Positions 1 through 6,114 of a DNA stretch of 7,826 nt are shown one piece after another. The notes under the pieces are model-generated. The model did not search any database. It saw only the letters and a program-made list of their open reading frames with translations, and had not been told where the DNA came from. Numbering within the stretch: the stretch's first letter is position 1; every line of letters starts with the position of its first letter. The stretch spans positions 1-7,826 of the forward strand of contig JALOPA010000164.1 of assembly GCA_025454125.1 (NCBI GenBank). The letters are read 5' to 3'. Origin of the DNA: Thermodesulfobacteriota bacterium (GTDB taxonomy: Bacteria; Desulfobacterota; DSM-4660; Desulfatiglandales; HGW-15). Made by a program: the position numbers and the translations under genes.

Positions 1-778
1 CGATGATCTTCTTCTCCTTCTCCTCTTCTCCGGAAAAGGTCATCATGTACACGATGTCGAACAGGGCCAACGGCATGTTGATCGCGCCCTTGATGTGCTT
101 TTGATCATAGAAGTTGGCAGGGCCGGCGTCGATCACGATCGTTTGACCCTTCTTCATTTCCTCCATGGCCGCGGCCGGGGCTATCAGGGTAAAGGCGCTC
201 TTGTCCGGAAGCTTGGGGAACAGAGGAATGCCGTTGGGATTGGATTGGTTGAAAACATACATCAGGATGAGGCTCACCCCGATGATCAGCACAAAATCGA
301 ACCAGGACATGCGCGGCGCCCGGTACTGCTGCTGCGCCTCCTTCTCGATGACCCTCTCGTCCCTCAAAAGCCAGCCCGACATCTGCTTCACAAAAGCCAG
401 AGAGAGATTGGGGTAGTCCTTCAGGATCCGCTCGAACTGCTCTTTGGAGAGCACCATGAACCCGGTCTCTTCCAGAGTCTCCACGTTCGCCGACCGCGCT
501 TCCCCTGTGAGCAGCGCCATTTCCCCGAAGCTCTCCCCCGCACCCAGCACGGACAGCTGAGTCTCCAGCCCGTCCTTGTCCTTCCTGAAGACCCTGACCT
601 TGCCCGAGGTGATGATGTAAAAACAGTCTCCAGGGTCCCCCTGCCTGAAAATCATGCGGCGGGGGGCTACGGTGAGTTTCTCCACGGCGTGGGTGAGTTC
701 CTCCCACTTCTCTTTGGGCAACTCTCCAAAGACACCGCTTCCCGAGAAATCGTCCTTCTTGCTCTCGTTGTCGCTCAT
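1..778 (-). CDS. Cyclic-nucleotide-binding / TM / rhodanese fusion protein (3' end outside window)
   Basis: 259 residues are visible. Residues ~16-130 form a Crp/CAP-type cyclic nucleotide-binding beta-roll; the phosphate-binding cassette is at 84-97 (FGEMALLTGEARSA), with the family's Gly-Glu and Arg. Residues ~159-177 are one hydrophobic helix, preceded by basic residues (YRAPR), so the N-terminus should be cytoplasmic and the part after the helix periplasmic. From ~200 a rhodanese-like domain begins (VIDAG, then HIKGAINMP at 228-236, matching the usual H-x-x-G-A-x-N/H-x-P). The window ends a few residues before the expected active-site Cys loop, so catalytic competence cannot be judged. 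There is no helix-turn-helix in the visible part, so this is not an ordinary Crp/Fnr regulator. The ATG lies 6 nt after the upstream gene's TAG, which is in the same frame, so no earlier start is possible; a GGGAG sits unusually close to it. The ligand and sulfur substrate are unknown. Confidence 0.9.
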   Translation of the reverse strand, partial: MSDNESKKDDFSGSGVFGELPKEKWEELTHAVEKLTVAPRRMIFRQGDPGDCFYIITSGKVRVFRKDKDGLETQLSVLGAGESFGEMALLTGEARSANVETLEETGFMVLSKEQFERILKDYPNLSLAFVKQMSGWLLRDERVIEKEAQQQYRAPRMSWFDFVLIIGVSLILMYVFNQSNPNGIPLFPKLPDKSAFTLIAPAAAMEEMKKGQTIVIDAGPANFYDQKHIKGAINMPLALFDIVYMMTFSGEEEKEKKII

Positions 779-784
779 CGCTCC

Positions 785-1363
785 CTACTGCTTCTTTTGG
801 ATGTCTCTCAGTTCCTTCAACAGGGCATCGAAATCCTTGATCACTCCCCCGTGGCTCCAGAGCACCTTCCCGCCGGGGGTGGTCACCACCATGGTCGGGG
901 TGTTCGGCTTTCCTGCAGCCACGTAAATGAGACCTTCCTTGTCCGGGAAAATGGGAAACACCGCCTTGAACTGGGTCTTGTACGCATCGACTTGTTTCTT
1001 GTCGTTCCCTATGGCGATCCCCATGATCTTGATGTCCTTTGCCAGCACCGCATCTCCCTGTATCGCGTTGTAGAGCCTGTTCACGACAGGCGCGTTCTTG
1101 TGACACGCCGGTCACAACGCGTTCATGAACTCGATCACCACCATCTTGGCGCCGATGTCGGTGAGCTTGAAGGGATCGCTGCTTTTCAGACCCAGGTATT
1201 TCTGCACTTCAGGGGAATCGGGCACTCCCACGGTAAAGGGGTTGATCTGGGATCCCACAGGGTACAAATCGCCCTCCGCGGCGTGCACGGAGTACACTTG
1301 CACCAGGAACAGGAGACAGGCCAACAACCGGAAACTCCTTAGAAACCATTTTTCCATTTTCAT
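785..1363 (-). CDS. Exported thioredoxin-fold (TlpA/redoxin-like) selenoprotein, Sec at residue 84 (UPAC motif)
   Basis: Seen: one frame from ATG 1363 to TAG 785, 192 codons, interrupted only by TGA at 1112-1114. Residues 1-~29 are a signal peptide (basic start, hydrophobic core, VHA-A cleavage site). After TGA the frame continues PACHKNAPVVNRLYN, then DIKIMGIAIGND, then a TPT cis-proline motif and a C-terminal helix: a complete thioredoxin fold. The TGA occupies exactly the first Cys of CxxC, following the beta-strand VVIEFMNAL, so the active site reads Sec84-Pro-Ala-Cys87. Known: bacterial thioredoxin-like selenoproteins carry Sec at this nucleophilic position. Inferred: a periplasmic thiol-disulfide oxidoreductase. 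Its partner is unknown. GGAGG lies 7 nt before the start. The next gene starts 6 nt after the stop, so the two are likely co-transcribed. Conceptual translation needs a TGA-as-Sec exception; otherwise it appears as an 83-residue fragment plus a 99-residue fragment. The alternative is a Cys-to-stop mutation. Confidence 0.85.
1075..1114 (-). promoter_or_regulatory. Candidate bacterial SECIS element (UGA plus apical hairpin)
   Basis: Starting 21 nt after the TGA, GCCTGT (1091-1086) pairs perfectly with ACAGGC (1080-1075) around the 5-nt loop CGTGA (1085-1081). The loop begins 27 nt past the UGA and has G as its second base. Known bacterial SECIS elements place a small apical loop roughly 16-37 nt after the UGA with G among its first two bases, so this fits. 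A competing 7-bp hairpin (GGCGTGT/ACGCGCC, 1109-1089, one G-U pair) starts 3 nt after the UGA and cannot form together with it. Confidence 0.65.
1112..1114 (-). other. In-frame TGA, probable selenocysteine codon
   Basis: The TGA codes for residue 84 of the thioredoxin-like protein, replacing the N-terminal Cys of the CxxC motif. It is one substitution from TGC or TGT, and everything downstream stays in frame and family-like. Recoding needs SelA, SelB, SelD and tRNA-Sec, which are not in this window. Confidence 0.82.
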
Positions 1364-1571
1364 GTTTCATCCTCCGAGAGTCTTTGCGGAATGTGCTTCA
1401 CCGTTCCCATATAAGGGAGCGGCTTCTTCGCAATAAGGAATGCTTGGCGATTGGGTTAGGGCGGTTGCCGATGGGGTTGGAATGACAGCTTTCATGTCTG
1501 GGACCCGGATCCTTCCGTTCCTGAACAAGCTGTTCCTTGAAAAAACGCGCACTGACCGTGACCGTGCAACG
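1364..1571 (-). promoter_or_regulatory. Spacer upstream of the selenoprotein gene; possible promoter region
   Basis: No gene is supported in these 208 nt. Reading toward the selenoprotein start, it holds a weak terminator-like structure (1540-1568), a 13-bp interrupted palindrome GAACAAGCTGTTC (1523-1535, possible operator), an AT-rich TTATAT (about 45 nt before the start) that could be a -10 box but has no good -35 match, and the GGAGG ribosome site. If the selenoprotein/rhodanese pair has its own promoter it should lie here; the promoter itself is not convincing by eye. Confidence 0.3.
1540..1568 (-). terminator. Weak candidate intrinsic terminator
   Basis: TGCAC (1568-1564) can pair with GTGCG (1552-1548, one G-U pair) across an 11-nt loop. 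Two bases later comes a run of six T (1545-1540). The stem is short, so this is tentative. It would separate the lipid-transport genes and DUF3300 remnant from the selenoprotein gene. Confidence 0.28.
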
Positions 1572-2173
1572 CTACATGAGCCGGGATGCAAAAGCAAGCG
1601 AAAAAAGCCTTAGGCCGGAGGAGTCTCTTCGCTGCTGGGCGCCGCCGCGGTCCAGCGACCCGGCATCCCGTTGCCCCTGAGCGCCCGGACGGCTCCCGGC
1701 TGAACGGTCCCTGACCTGACCGCCACAGTTCACGTCCTGCCGGCCTGTCGCCGACCGGTCACGGTACTGATCGGCGCCCCCTCGCGCAATGTCCTGTCTT
1801 CCCGCTTCGGCGCGGCCGCGGAACGCTTCTCATTCATCATGTCCAGCACTTGGGGAAAATTCACCAGCGACTTGACGCTCGGGTCCCAGGGCTGCTGTTC
1901 AAGAGCATCCGCAAGGGCCTCTCCCTTGAGGTTCTGGTTCGTCTTGACCCACCGCCCGGCCTGGACGACCTCCAGAGGCTAGGTGGAGGCCATGAAGATC
2001 TGCGACAACAGCGAATCGGGGTAAAGGGCAACGGGCGCCAGAAGCTGGTCCAACTCCTCCTGTTTGAAGGGTTTGTCTCCGCTTCCGACCTGGGCCACGA
2101 CCCCCGGAGGCGCTCCCATCAGGAGTGCCAGCACAACGGCCAGTGCTTTGATCCACGGTCTCTTTTTTTTCAT
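1572..2173 (-). pseudogene. DUF3300 family protein, broken: amber codon plus frame-shifting internal deletion
   Basis: ATG 2173 opens a signal peptide (MKKKRPWIKALAVVLALLMG) followed by the DUF3300 hallmark EELDQLLAPVALYPDSLL and QIFMAST. TAG at 1979-1981 then replaces the Tyr usual in MAST-Y-PLEVV; the same frame continues as family sequence to about 1826 (PLEVVQAGRW, QQPWDPSVKSLVNFPQVL, DMMNEK). At ~1826-1829 the recognisable sequence jumps to another frame (EAFRGRAEAGRQDIARGGAD, then YRDRSATGRQDV), which resembles the Arg/Gly-rich C-terminal tail of DUF3300 proteins and runs to TAG 1572. The central part of the family protein is missing; I recall full members as several hundred residues. 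So the gene has at least one nonsense codon and a large deletion that shifts frame. DUF3300 proteins are exported and of unknown function. The upstream lipoprotein frame overlaps it. Confidence 0.78.
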
Positions 2174-2786
2174 GCCCTTCTTCTCTTTCCTGCACCGGCC
2201 TGATCGCTTCGGCGATTTCGCGGCTGAGTGCGATGACCGCCCTGCTCTGCGCTGCCACCAAGGCTTCGTAAGTGGGCGCTCCCGTGGGCTCCCTCAATGA
2301 GGATCTTTTTCCCAGCAGAAGCTTCTTGCCTTCACGCTCAAAGAGGCCCCATTTCGCGATCAAGACCACCTCCCCGCCAAGACTTCCGTCAAACTGCACC
2401 ACCTCCACCCCAACCTGCAGCCTCTGAGGCGAGCCCGTGGTCTCCGTGGTGTTGATGACCTTCGCCGTGTTGAGAAGGCTTGAGAGATTCTGAACCAGAG
2501 CACGGGTGAAGCTGCTCTTGAGAGGCTCGGCCCACCGGCTGAACTCATCGAGCTTGATTTCGTTCTCGCTCACCCGCGTCACGATCTGGGGCCTGTCCAG
2601 GTAATCCGGCATGGCCACAGGAAAGACCCCGATCACGGTTCCCTCCGCAGCGCTCAGACCAGGCTGGGGCAAAGAGCTGAGAACATAGAACTGTGAGGAG
2701 GCGCTCTTCCCTGCGCAACTAGACAGGCAAACGGCCAAGGCCAAAAGTCCAATCACCGCGTGAACTGAAGATCGATGGGTTCTCAT
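1899..2786 (-). CDS. ABC-type transport auxiliary lipoprotein (PqiC/ABC_trans_aux-like), over-long C-terminus
   Basis: Residues 1-24 are a lipoprotein signal peptide ending in lipobox LSSC, with Cys24 as the lipidation site. Residues ~30-195 match the ABC_trans_aux/PqiC family: FYVLSSL near the mature start, then FPVAMPDYLDRPQIVTR (55-71) and RWAEPLKSSFTRAL (84-97). Family members accompany MCE importers in the periplasm or outer membrane and help pass lipids between membranes. ATG 2786 was chosen over one 57 nt upstream because it has GGAGG 8 nt before it, starts the signal peptide, and follows the MCE gene's TGA by 1 nt (translational coupling). Family-like sequence ends near residue 196; the last ~100 residues are an out-of-frame reading of the DUF3300 remnant, with no family character. 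The natural stop seems lost: a one-base indel would restore TGA at 2170-2172, inside the ATGA of the DUF3300 start. Confidence 0.85.
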   Translation of the reverse strand: MRTHRSSVHAVIGLLALAVCLSSCAGKSASSQFYVLSSLPQPGLSAAEGTVIGVFPVAMPDYLDRPQIVTRVSENEIKLDEFSRWAEPLKSSFTRALVQNLSSLLNTAKVINTTETTGSPQRLQVGVEVVQFDGSLGGEVVLIAKWGLFEREGKKLLLGKRSSLREPTGAPTYEALVAAQSRAVIALSREIAEAIRPVQEREEGHEKKETVDQSTGRCAGTPDGSASGGRGPGRKRRQTLQTGGVGPASGARCPLPRFAVVADLHGLHLASGGRPGRAVGQDEPEPQGRGPCGCS

Positions 2787-2787
2787 T

Positions 2788-3867
2788 TCATTTTCCTCCG
2801 CCTTCCCCCTTGCCGCCGAGAAGGGCTTCGGGGTGTCTTTCAAGATAATCGGTCAGGGTGCTCAGGGACCGGGCCGCTTTTTCCACCTCGCGCAAGGTCT
2901 CGTTCAGTCGGTACATGAGCGTGGAGTCCTCTCTCGCTGAACTCTCCAGCTCTTGGATCAATTTCCTCGCTTCCGCGAGGGCCGAAGTCGCCTCTGTGAG
3001 CGTGCCGTCGATCTTCACCTTGATGGATTCCACGGTGCCGTCGGCGTTTCGAATGAGCTTCCGGCCGTCGCCGATGGCCTCGTTCAGATTCGTCCCGAGG
3101 GATGCCACCTGAGAGTCTGCATTCCTGACAAGCTTCTGGGCGTCTCGGATCGTATCGGTCAGACCCGCGCTCAACGGCTTGACCTGGTCATTCACATTGC
3201 GCACCAGAGTCTGGATGTCTTTGAGAGCGATGTTGAGATTGGCGATGCTTTCCTTGAGCTCCCGCGAGTTGGCAAGCTTCGCGATCCCGTCCGCCGCGGA
3301 ATTGATGTTGTTCAGAATATCCTCAACAGGAAGGCTTTCCAGCTTCTTGGTCAGTTCCTGAAGAGGGGTGGGGATCGTCGGGATTTCCTGTATCGTCTTG
3401 TCAATCCCTGTGTAAATCGCCGGCTTGTCGGGAAAGAAATCCAGAGCGATCTGCAGCTGGCCTGTAACAATGCTCTGCATTTCCAACTGGGCACGAAGCC
3501 CGCGGCCGATCAGCTCTCTCATGTTTGAATATCGATCTTTGAGGGCGCCCAGCTTGGCCGCCGCGTCATCCATATTGGTGATTTCTATTTTTGTCGGTTC
3601 GAAATCCGCATACACGAGAATCGTCAATGCCTTGGTCGAGTAATTGAAGTGCATGTGAATGCTGCTGACCGCGCCGATCTTGACTCCCCGGAACACCACC
3701 GGTGACCCGATGTTCAACCCTTTCACCGACCCCTCGAAAACCATCACGTAGGGAGTGCGTTCTTTGAACAGCTTGCCCGAGCCCAGCACCCCGATCGCCA
3801 CAACGATCAGCGCAAGGGATCCCACCACAAAGAGCCCAATCATCGTCTTGTTCACCGGTTTGCTCAT
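2788..3867 (-). CDS. mlaD: MCE-family lipid-transport protein (MlaD/PqiB type)
   Basis: 359 residues. Residues ~9-29 are a single N-terminal membrane helix; ~38-145 hold the MCE domain (FEGSVKGLNIGSPVVFRGVK at 44-63, the usual G-L-x-x-G-x-x-V-x-x-x-G-V-x-x-G pattern). Residues ~165-340 are a long helical region with three ~25-residue repeats starting at 221, 246 and 271 (LVRNVNDQV, LVRNADSQV, LIRNADGTV), ending YLERHPEALL (341-350), a tail common in PqiB-like MCE proteins. MCE proteins form a periplasmic ring attached to the MlaFE transporter and carry lipid between membranes. The long helical tail suggests a needle or extended channel, unlike the ~183-residue E. coli MlaD, so PqiB or LetB-like function is also possible; the symbol refers to operon position. 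GGAG lies 6 nt before ATG 3867. A gap of 189 nt separates it from mlaF, unusually long for this cluster. Confidence 0.93.
   Translation of the reverse strand: MSKPVNKTMIGLFVVGSLALIVVAIGVLGSGKLFKERTPYVMVFEGSVKGLNIGSPVVFRGVKIGAVSSIHMHFNYSTKALTILVYADFEPTKIEITNMDDAAAKLGALKDRYSNMRELIGRGLRAQLEMQSIVTGQLQIALDFFPDKPAIYTGIDKTIQEIPTIPTPLQELTKKLESLPVEDILNNINSAADGIAKLANSRELKESIANLNIALKDIQTLVRNVNDQVKPLSAGLTDTIRDAQKLVRNADSQVASLGTNLNEAIGDGRKLIRNADGTVESIKVKIDGTLTEATSALAEARKLIQELESSAREDSTLMYRLNETLREVEKAARSLSTLTDYLERHPEALLGGKGEGGGK
2962..3207 (-). repeat. Three in-frame ~25-codon repeats in the MCE protein
   Basis: Codons 221-245, 246-270 and 271-~302 each begin L-V/I-R-N-x-(N/D)-x-x-V, followed by a helix ending in D-x-x-K/R or similar. 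The repeats are clear at protein level and diverged at DNA level, so they are an old duplication in the helical tail. Confidence 0.7.
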
Positions 3868-3878
3868 AGCCTTCTCCG

Positions 3879-3893
3879 CAACAAGTATTGTTG
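3879..3893 (-). promoter_or_regulatory. Small perfect hairpin just before the mlaD ribosome site
   Basis: CAACAA-TAC-TTGTTG forms a 6-bp stem with a 3-nt loop, ending about 2 nt before the GGAG of mlaD. It may affect ribosome access or mRNA stability; chance is also possible for so short a structure. Confidence 0.35.
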
Positions 3894-3943
3894 AGGCACA
3901 GGGTACTTGCTTCTCATCAATTCATCCGTGATCAAGTAAATTA

Positions 3944-4031
3944 TGGAATTCTGGAATTGTGGGATTCTGGAATTTGGAGATTTGACAATCCCTCAATTCG
4001 CAATTCCAGAATTCGCAATTCCAGAATTCCA
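3944..4031. repeat. Intergenic octamer-periodic inverted repeat (mlaF-mlaD gap)
   Basis: On the plus strand the left arm (3944-3975) is four octamers, TGGAATTC, TGGAATTG, TGGGATTC and TGGAATTT. The right arm (4001-4031) is close to its reverse complement, built from CAATTCCA and GAATTC(C/G) units, with a 25-nt loop. In RNA the two arms could form a stem of about 30 bp with one bulge and a few mismatches. There is no coding sequence here. Related units occur on the other side of mlaF. Confidence 0.85.
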
Positions 4032-4056
4032 GCATTCGCAATTTCCCGATTTGCCC

Positions 4057-4812
4057 TTATTCTTCACCTCTCGTCAGAAACTTGTGCACCCTCGGGTTCG
4101 GAGAATGGTCCCGCAGCTTTTTCGGATCCCCGCTCGCCGACATGGTCCTCTCTTCCACATCCAGGTACACCGAGTTGTTCCCTATCGTGAAGATGCTCGC
4201 CAGCTCGTGCGTCACCACCACGATCGTCGTCTTGAGGCTCTCCCGCAGCTCCAGAATCAGGTCATCCAGCAGCCGCGAACTCACCGGGTCCAGCCCCGCC
4301 GAAGGCTCGTCAAAAAACAGAATGTCCGGGTCCATGGCCATGGCCCTCGCCAGGCCTGCCCTCTTCTTCATCCCCCCGCTGATCTCCGAGGGATAGAAAT
4401 CCTCGAACCCGGCCAGCCCAACCAGCGCAAGCTTCAGAGACGCCACTTCCCTGATCTGCTTCGAGCTCAGTTCCGTGTACTGCTCCAGCGGCAGCGCGAT
4501 GTTCTCCGCCAAGGTCATGGAACTCCACAGCGCCCCGCTCTGATACAAGATCCCAAACCGCCTCTGGATCCTCTCCCTCGCCTCAGGGTCTCCTCCCCAG
4601 AAGTCCGTCTCTCCGTAGAACACCTTTCCTTTAGACGGGGTCTTGAGACCCACCAGGATCTTGAGCAGCGTGCTCTTCCCGCACCCGCTTCCCCCCATGA
4701 TGATGAACACGTCCCCTCGGTTCACCGTAAAGTTGAGGTTCCGCATGAGCACGAAATCCCCGTACCCCATGTCCAGGTCCTTCACCACAATGGCCGGTTG
4801 ATGGTCAGTCAT
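4057..4812 (-). CDS. mlaF: MlaF-type ABC transporter ATP-binding protein
   Basis: 251 residues; it powers lipid movement by the MlaFE-type inner-membrane complex with the STAS-MlaE permease upstream and the MCE protein downstream. All ABC ATPase motifs are intact: Walker A GGSGCGKST (40-48), Q-loop Gln91 (LYQSGALWSSMT), signature ISGGMKKR (144-151; the Met-Lys-Lys-Arg ending is typical of MlaF/Ttg2A rather than LSGGQ), Walker B ILFFDEP (164-170, catalytic Glu169), D-loop SAGLDP, and switch His202. ATG 4812 (MTDHQPAI) is preferred: an in-frame ATG 60 nt upstream would only add residues encoded by the octamer-repeat spacer. The Shine-Dalgarno is weak (GAG about 9 nt upstream). Both flanking gaps carry related inverted repeats. 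Confidence 0.95.
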   Translation of the reverse strand: MTDHQPAIVVKDLDMGYGDFVLMRNLNFTVNRGDVFIIMGGSGCGKSTLLKILVGLKTPSKGKVFYGETDFWGGDPEARERIQRRFGILYQSGALWSSMTLAENIALPLEQYTELSSKQIREVASLKLALVGLAGFEDFYPSEISGGMKKRAGLARAMAMDPDILFFDEPSAGLDPVSSRLLDDLILELRESLKTTIVVVTHELASIFTIGNNSVYLDVEERTMSASGDPKKLRDHSPNPRVHKFLTRGEE

Positions 4813-4829
4813 AAAGAAACTCGGATTCA

Positions 4830-4925
4830 GGAATAATGGAATACTGGAACGGTGGAATACTGTTTGACCCACACGGACTTCTTACCAGATCGGCCATCAT
4901 TCCATTATTCCATTCTTCCACAGTT
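4830..4925. repeat. Intergenic octamer-periodic inverted repeat (mlaE-mlaF gap)
   Basis: On the plus strand, 4830-4862 reads as octamers GGAATAAT, GGAATACT, GGAACGGT and GGAATACT. At 4898-4927 the complementary register appears (CATTCCAT, TATTCCAT, TCTTCCAC, AGTTCCGG). A perfect 13-bp inverted core is GGAATAATGGAAT (4830-4842) against 4899-4911. It has the same unit family and period as the repeat on the other side of mlaF. Confidence 0.8.
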
Positions 4926-4932
4926 CCGGTTT

Positions 4933-6114
4933 TTATAGCTTCAACACTTCACACATGAACGTGATGATCGCCGTGGCCACGATGATCGACACAATGCTCG
5001 TCACCACCGCAGAGGTCGCCGCATACCCCACGTCCGAAGCGCTCCTCCCGCACTGCATCCCCCTCAGACACCCGGCCAACGCCACGAGCACGCCAAACAC
5101 CGCACTGTGGAACAGTCCGATCCACACCGTCGTCAAGGTCAAGGTCTCCTGGGTCCGGGTCAGATACTCCACAAACCCAATGTCCAGCATCCCCACCCCA
5201 ACGATCAGCCCGCCTGCGATCCCCATCAGATCGGCATACAGGCACAACAGCGGCATCATGATGATCAGGGCAATCATCCTCGGCAGCACCAGAAACTCCA
5301 CCGGGCTGATCCCCATGGTCTCCAGCGCATCAATCTCCTCGTTCACCTGCATCGTCCCGATCTGCGCCGCAAAAGCCGCCCCGGTCCTCCCGGCCATGAT
5401 GATCCCGGTCATGATCGCTCCCATCACCCTCACCATGGCGATCGCCACGATGTCCGCCACATAAACCTGCGCACCGAAAAGCTTCAGCTGGATCGCTCCC
5501 ACAAACGCCAGAATCAGACCCACCAGCAGGCTGATGAGCGACACGATGGGAAGGGCCTGGGCACCGCACTCCTGAAGCAGCAGCGTGAGGTCGGATCGCC
5601 GAAAAGCCGCCTTGCCTCTTACGAGCCTCATCAGCGCCAGGGACGACTCTCCCAGAAACTCCATGATATCCAGGAAAGACCGGTAGAAGGCCACGGCCTT
5701 CCCCCCCACCATGGAGAAGAAAGCCTCTTTCTTGGCCTCTTTTCTCGCCCCTTTTCTCTCGGGAACCGCTGTGGCCAGATCGATCAGCCTCCGGACCCCT
5801 TCCGGCAGACCGTCTTTTGCGACCTCGATCTCGGCTTTGGAGCATGTTTCGAAGATCTTGATGAGAAAGGTGAGAAGCCCGCTGTCCCAGGCGCCGAGTT
5901 CCCGGGCGTCAAAAGCGACACGCCGGATGCCTTGTCCGGATTCCAGGGACTTCTCCACTTCAGAAGTAGAAGGGAGCGTCGCGGTAAGCTTCCAATCCCC
6001 TGAGAGCCTGACAAGGAGCGCCTCCGCCGTTGGCGACGTGACGCTCAGGCCCGCTGTCGTTGGTCCTCTTTGTTCGGATGCATCCATCGACTGCACTACC
6101 CCGTGCTGCACCAC
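4933..6114 (-). CDS. mlaE: MlaE-family ABC permease with N-terminal STAS domain
   Basis: 393 residues. Residues ~30-120 form a STAS-like domain (MlaB-like; AFDARELGAWDSGLLTFL at 67-84 is the beta-strand/helix around the usual Asp-Ser). Residues ~140-393 are the MlaE permease with five or so membrane helices and the diagnostic block GRTGAAFAAQIGTMQVNEEI (242-261) then DALETMGISPVEFLVLPR (262-279), which contacts the ATPase. In E. coli MlaB is a separate protein; here it is fused, as in many other proteobacteria. It moves phospholipid or a similar lipid through the inner membrane with MlaF. The GTG start at 6114 lies 3 nt after the pgk TAG, with AAGGA about 10 nt upstream; ATG 6087 (MDASEQ) is an alternative start that also keeps the whole STAS domain. 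No mlaC-like soluble carrier is visible in the window. Confidence 0.94.
   Translation of the reverse strand: MVQHGVVQSMDASEQRGPTTAGLSVTSPTAEALLVRLSGDWKLTATLPSTSEVEKSLESGQGIRRVAFDARELGAWDSGLLTFLIKIFETCSKAEIEVAKDGLPEGVRRLIDLATAVPERKGARKEAKKEAFFSMVGGKAVAFYRSFLDIMEFLGESSLALMRLVRGKAAFRRSDLTLLLQECGAQALPIVSLISLLVGLILAFVGAIQLKLFGAQVYVADIVAIAMVRVMGAIMTGIIMAGRTGAAFAAQIGTMQVNEEIDALETMGISPVEFLVLPRMIALIIMMPLLCLYADLMGIAGGLIVGVGMLDIGFVEYLTRTQETLTLTTVWIGLFHSAVFGVLVALAGCLRGMQCGRSASDVGYAATSAVVTSIVSIIVATAIITFMCEVLKL

Follow-up and report, generated by a model that had tools for sequence, protein, structure and literature searches.

A very probable exported thioredoxin-like selenoprotein with a UPAC active site, encoded by a gene seemingly interrupted by a stop

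The window protein and its described counterparts

Selenoproteins that combine a UxxC motif with an AhpC-TSA domain (PF00578) appear in the tables of PMC13188914, PMC9312934 and PMC1794560, where cd02966 is also found among the domains and Deltaproteobacteria among the holders; in the tables of the first two, UxxC selenoproteins are likewise listed with PF08534 or related domains. Two of these kinds, namely the Prx-like thiol:disulfide oxidoreductases (PF00578 with UxxC or UxxU) and the UxxC forms with cd02966/PF08534, have the same domain and motif as the protein considered here, with the likeness to the Prx-like group (representative WP_010940744.1) resting on domain and motif rather than on a sequence alignment. 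A further parallel might be struck with the MauD/MauE pair of methylamine dehydrogenase maturation, in which a thioredoxin-like protein and a membrane protein of the MauE family (PF07291) likewise occur in one set, and in which MauE is suspected, in a passage of PMC7794033, of a role in disulfide formation.

The locus lies in a window that comprises the whole analysed stretch of 7,826 nucleotides from a Thermodesulfobacteriota contig (JALOPA010000164.1). The coordinates given in the initial annotation, 785..1363, are right, and the strand, which it had left unstated, is the minus strand: translated from 1363 to 785, there is a single 192-residue frame whose sole interruption is a TGA at residue 84 and which closes with TAG. 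The interruption falls, as had been claimed, exactly on the first Cys of a CxxC-type motif, the active site reading ALU-P-A-C-HKNAP, i.e., UPAC, and the 192-codon frame is free of any second stop or frameshift. Its parts are as follows.

785..1363, minus strand: proposed selenoprotein gene in full, with 192 codons and a closing TAG, one in-frame TGA, and family sequence on both sides of it
1371..1375, minus strand: GGAGG, resembling a ribosome-binding site in sequence, 7 bases upstream of the ATG
1280..1363, minus strand: signal-peptide-like start, residues 1–28 (VHA/AE), read by eye from the translation; helix 3–25 in the structure model
1112..1114, minus strand: TGA codon 84, proposed selenocysteine; TGA at the identical codon in loci L030, L002/L129, L060 and L131, Cys in 34/44 homologues
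1103..1105, minus strand: Cys87, second active-site residue and proposed resolving Cys, from the translation; invariant in alignment A2
1075..1091, minus strand: hairpin resembling a SECIS, GCCUGU-CGUGA-ACAGGC, whose loop begins 26 nt past the UGA, from folding, comparison with relatives and published limits
893..901, minus strand: TPT, residues 155–157, from the translation and alignment A2
2..778, minus strand: next gene, running off the edge of the window; it encodes a cNMP-binding domain, a membrane helix (by eye) and the beginning of a rhodanese domain

The protein is predicted to have a thioredoxin fold of the ResA/TlpA type. The structure model made from alignment A2 (mean pLDDT 91.6, pTM 0.80) has its C-terminal helix at residues 178–191, and among solved structures ResA comes out best in the profile search (3c71_A, E 2.1e-16) as well as in the fold comparison (1st9_A, E 7.5e-11). 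The TPT at 155–157 is presumably the cis-Pro position of that fold. The likeness to the exported ResA/TlpA-like thioredoxins extends to fold, profile match, CxxC-type site and cis-Pro, whereas the window protein differs from them in having a proposed selenocysteine for the first Cys, in its gene neighbours and in a sub-cut-off score against the NCBIfam ResA model. At E 0.001 the NCBIfam matches are the ResA and StoA models alone, both far below their cut-offs, and none of the NCBIfam selenoprotein models matched at that threshold; since ResA equivalence requires 170 bits and the protein reaches 40.2, it is not filed as ResA itself. Among Pfam domains, AhpC-TSA is matched at 27.5 bits against a cut-off of 26, whereas Redoxin and Thioredoxin_8 stay below theirs. 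With this domain and the UPAC motif, the protein would, judged from its sequence, belong among the UxxC selenoproteins with PF00578 that are already published.

Given that published tables already contain UxxC forms with the domains PF00578, PF08534 and cd02966, the suggestion of the initial annotation that an exported thioredoxin-like selenoprotein is worth describing loses part of its novelty. It is the context that was not found described in the open-licence literature searched: a set of four genes, for this protein, a cNMP-binding/rhodanese-like protein lacking the catalytic Cys, a MauE-like membrane protein with a CGC motif and a small lipoprotein.

Relatives with TGA at the active-site codon

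A protein search returned 44 database homologues, in which the residue aligned with position 84 is Cys in 34 and Trp in two, the others being seven C-terminal pieces of 105–107 residues, which start at most four codons past the site, and one N-terminal piece, which ends just short of it. The in-frame TGA is thus aligned with a Cys conserved in homologues, and this alignment, proposed at the outset as a check, favours the selenocysteine reading. The closest database relatives are themselves pieces (P0017, P0019 and P0022, with 81–83% identity over 55% of the query), a pattern that, judged from the protein records, would be expected if a stop lay at the identical place. Gene callers split such genes, as they do with the window under table 11 (an 83-aa piece at 1112–1363 and a 99-aa piece at 785–1084), and 8/44 database matches are fragments that end or begin here, so that the redox protein in its full length escapes annotation. 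The two homologues with Trp listed at the selenocysteine site, P0002 and P0016, are metagenome proteins of the selenocysteine group; this Trp may be real, or may be a TGA translated under code 4 in gene calling.

At the level of DNA, scanning genome contigs yielded 13 loci, 11 of them covering the site and two (L002 and L011) bearing a stop there. Whole-genome protein searches covered 85, 155, 55, 85, 395 and 5 genomes; those made by class or phylum (55, 85, 395 and 5 genomes) added two TGA loci, L131 and L127, the second 85-genome search yielding no additional one. Across 93 distinct sites (E 1e-18 or better) the codon is TGA in 8, Cys in 85 and nothing else in any. The eight are the window, L030, L129 (the same gene as L002), L060 (the same gene as L011), L131, L127, L090 and L091. 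Four of them, L030, L129, L060 and L131, are close, window-like loci with intact frames from three genomes, while L127, L090 and L091, together with the weaker relative L094, are more distant. The search for other TGA-containing orthologues that had been called for was thus rewarded, with the codon conserved in other species. In genome G002 the family is represented by two TGA paralogues, which share 61% and 49% identity with the window protein.

The family sequence was said to be intact on both sides of the TGA, and the comparison with L030 bears this out: 32/54 positions are identical over residues 30–83 and 70/108 over residues 85–192, without gaps. The corresponding values are 30/54 and 53/106 for L129, 21/54 and 53/102 for L060, and 18/54 and 45/108 for L131. 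Four weak matches (L092, L093, L095 and L096) also have a TGA inside. No relative was found among the viral contigs and plasmids searched.

Hairpin, selenocysteine machinery and competing readings

The window, L030, L129, L060 and L131 all have a stem of 6 bp closed by a 5-nt loop at an identical offset, the loop lying 26 nt after the UGA. The limits for a bSECIS in the Fig. 2 legend of PMC13188914 are a loop of 3–9 nt with G in its first two positions, a stem of 4–16 bp, a loop placed 16–37 nt after the UGA and an energy of -7.5 or lower; against this legend, the window hairpin falls within all of them (5 nt, CGUGA, 6 bp, 26 nt), in energy narrowly so at -7.6. Folded alone, the hairpins of the five window-like loci range from -7.4 to -7.9, and that of L131, at -7.4, narrowly misses the legend's -7.5. 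All six pairs are present at the homologous place in 5/8 TGA loci, namely all five window-like ones, against 2/85 Cys loci (2/17 among Cys loci of at least 44% identity). Of 120 synonymous shuffles, those reaching the observed energy number 6 for the window, 2 for L030, none for L129, 6 for L060 and 9 for L131; the counts are 30 for L127 and zero for both L090 and L091. A different, competing structure of lower energy, -16.6, is also open to the 60 nt that follow from the window UGA. The covariation test is too small for strong support, as it consists of one pair in one sequence, the outer pair being U-A in L131 versus G-C with both sides changed, and 97/500 shuffles score equally. Neither Rfam nor tRNA scans found a match in the window. 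Among the distant TGA relatives, L127 has a weaker hairpin, a GGC loop stands at +17 in L090 and L091, and L090, L091 and L094 show a very different hairpin, GGAGGCUCC around a loop 17 nt after the UGA. The two Cys homologues with the six-pair hairpin, L102 and L104, have it after the Cys codon with the loop AGUCA; it may be a relic of a former selenocysteine codon or a chance product of codon choice.

The genomes of the TGA relatives are equipped for selenocysteine. The three that hold the four close relatives have selA, selB, tRNA-Sec (anticodon TCA) and a TGA-bearing selD throughout. More widely, selA is present in 7/7 genomes with TGA relatives (12/12 of the genomes examined); selB scores above cut-off in G002 and G010 (10/11 genomes in one scan, with G005 the exception) and in 5/5 others; selD is present in 5/7, each with a TGA-bearing copy, while G234 and G235 yielded none in a search at E 1e-30. 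The tRNA-Sec model also scores above cut-off in 5/14 control genomes (E 1e-7), some of which we do not expect to use selenocysteine, and the tRNA-Sec evidence was therefore taken from ARAGORN, which reports a tRNA-Sec with anticodon TCA in 10/10 loci scanned, including all seven genomes with TGA relatives. A second, weaker tRNA-Sec (52–60 bits, TCA) adjoins a SelB gene in L155 (G006), L156 (G010), L157 (G001), L158 (G008) and L159 (G009); an ordinary one of more than 74 bits is also present in G006, G008 and G010, and in G001 and G009 the weaker one is the best found.

A midpoint-rooted tree was built from 83 loci (6 Sec, 77 Cys). On it the label has to switch between Sec and Cys four times, with three of the switches forced by well-supported branches, and 3/500 label shuffles are as low. 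The window groups with L129 and L060 (support 96/84) with L030 next to this group, L131 is joined to the Cys form L111 (100/95), and L127 falls within a large Cys group; the placement of L060 and L127 is unsure because their branches are long. When database forms are included, the window, L030, L129, four pieces and both Trp forms come together (97/90), adjoining a 37-row Cys group (99/99) that includes the piece P0044. That L131, the window group and two Cys members share the hairpin would be compatible with selenocysteine as the older state.

Three other readings of the TGA have to be weighed against selenocysteine. That it is a nonsense mutation or a sequencing error in a Cys gene, i.e., that the gene is a recent pseudogene, draws some credit from Cys being the commonest residue at the site, from the broken look of the neighbouring DUF3300 frame (an internal TAG) and from the window being a single sequence without reads for checking; we nonetheless regard this as improbable, given that the frame has no second stop or frameshift, that four close loci in three genomes and four distant ones have TGA at the identical codon, and that the hairpin sits at one offset common to the window and the four close loci. 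It is harder still to credit that the UGA is a true stop separating two proteins, the second starting at an internal GTG (1084): although ORF calling yields 83-aa and 99-aa pieces and such pieces occur in the database, the break would split a single thioredoxin domain between its active-site residues, most homologues (36/44) are one chain, and no good ribosome-binding site is seen by eye upstream of 1084.

The reading to which we attach the least weight is that TGA encodes tryptophan, giving WPAC. It could appeal to the Trp listed in P0002 and P0016, which is possibly just code-4 gene calling, but TGA terminates MlaD in the same window, the site is Cys and not Trp in 34/44 homologues, and the genomes with TGA relatives have the selenocysteine machinery. 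The selenoprotein reading of the initial annotation is thus supported by the TGA at the identical codon in four loci, by the hairpin and by the sel genes of the relatives' genomes. This gene that looks stop-broken very probably encodes, judging by these comparisons, a full-length exported protein with selenocysteine at its active site.

Conserved neighbours and the proposed redox exchange

Gene order was compared in 26 distinct loci with longer flanks, a subset of the 93 sites. The cNMP-binding/rhodanese gene adjoins the homologue in 21/26, and a set of four, consisting of the thioredoxin-like protein, the cNMP/rhodanese protein, a MauE-like membrane protein and a small lipoprotein, is complete in 18/26. 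The set is absent from L136, L140, L145, L090 and L091, has parts missing in L135 and L143, and is cut at the contig end in L005; L002 was left unscored because its contig ends at the gene. TGA members with all four genes are L098/L030, L142/L060 and L139/L131, and the window shows the first two and then ends. The MauE-like protein (PF07291, E 1.8e-25 in L098) carries CGC(Y/F)D in 19/20 distinct loci in which it is matched; in the remaining one, L135, the match spans just 26 residues. These loci differ from the MauD/MauE pair in that those examined showed no further mau genes and in that the thioredoxin-like and MauE-like proteins are accompanied by the cNMP/Cys-less rhodanese protein and the lipoprotein. 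The rhodanese loop, (V/I/L)YGxT(I/V)S(R/K), is without Cys in 19/19 distinct loci that cover it, its Gly standing at what we take to be the position of the catalytic Cys. Sulfur transfer by this neighbour was dropped as the default because of that Cys-less loop; we infer rather that the protein is a sensor or scaffold.

We hold it highly probable that the gene yields one full-length exported selenoprotein, with selenocysteine inserted by way of the hairpin, that acts in ResA/TlpA-like periplasmic thiol-disulfide exchange, probably with a MauE-like partner. A ribosome starting at 1363 would meet the UGA at 1114–1112, and the hairpin 26 nt downstream would recruit SelB with Sec-tRNA, such that selenocysteine would be inserted instead of termination occurring. 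The product, with its signal-peptide-like start, would be exported to the periplasm, where Sec84 of the thioredoxin fold would serve as the attacking nucleophile and Cys87 as the resolving residue of the exchange, whichever direction the reaction takes. Its likely redox partner would be the MauE-like membrane protein with the CGC motif, whose gene in relatives lies two places further along, and the cNMP-binding/Cys-less rhodanese protein might act as sensor or scaffold.

A broader scheme can be entertained only tentatively, and we consider it rather unlikely as a whole: the set might constitute an undescribed selenium-dependent redox relay of the periplasm in which the selenocysteine protein, as its soluble half, exchanges electrons with the CGC motif of the MauE-like membrane protein and the membrane-bound cNMP/Cys-less rhodanese protein reports its state to the cytoplasm, with selenocysteine as the older state and L102 and L104 keeping an old SECIS. 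Sec and Cys forms occur in one gene set and so lend themselves to a comparison of what makes selenium necessary in an exported thioredoxin, and the conserved neighbours are testable partners for a selenoprotein class of mostly unclear function.

Elsewhere in the window, a lipid-transport-like set (PqiC-like lipoprotein, MlaD, MlaF and MlaE; 2169–6114, minus strand) lies between the proposed selenoprotein gene and PGK/GAPDH; in the 30 sequences compared, no such set was found beside a homologue, except for a weak MlaF-like match in L008. At 1650–2173, on the minus strand, a DUF3300-like frame starting at 2173 is broken by a TAG at 1979–1981, with similar-looking sequence beyond it and a later stop, and may be a degraded copy, a sequencing error or, less likely, a case of recoded TAG.
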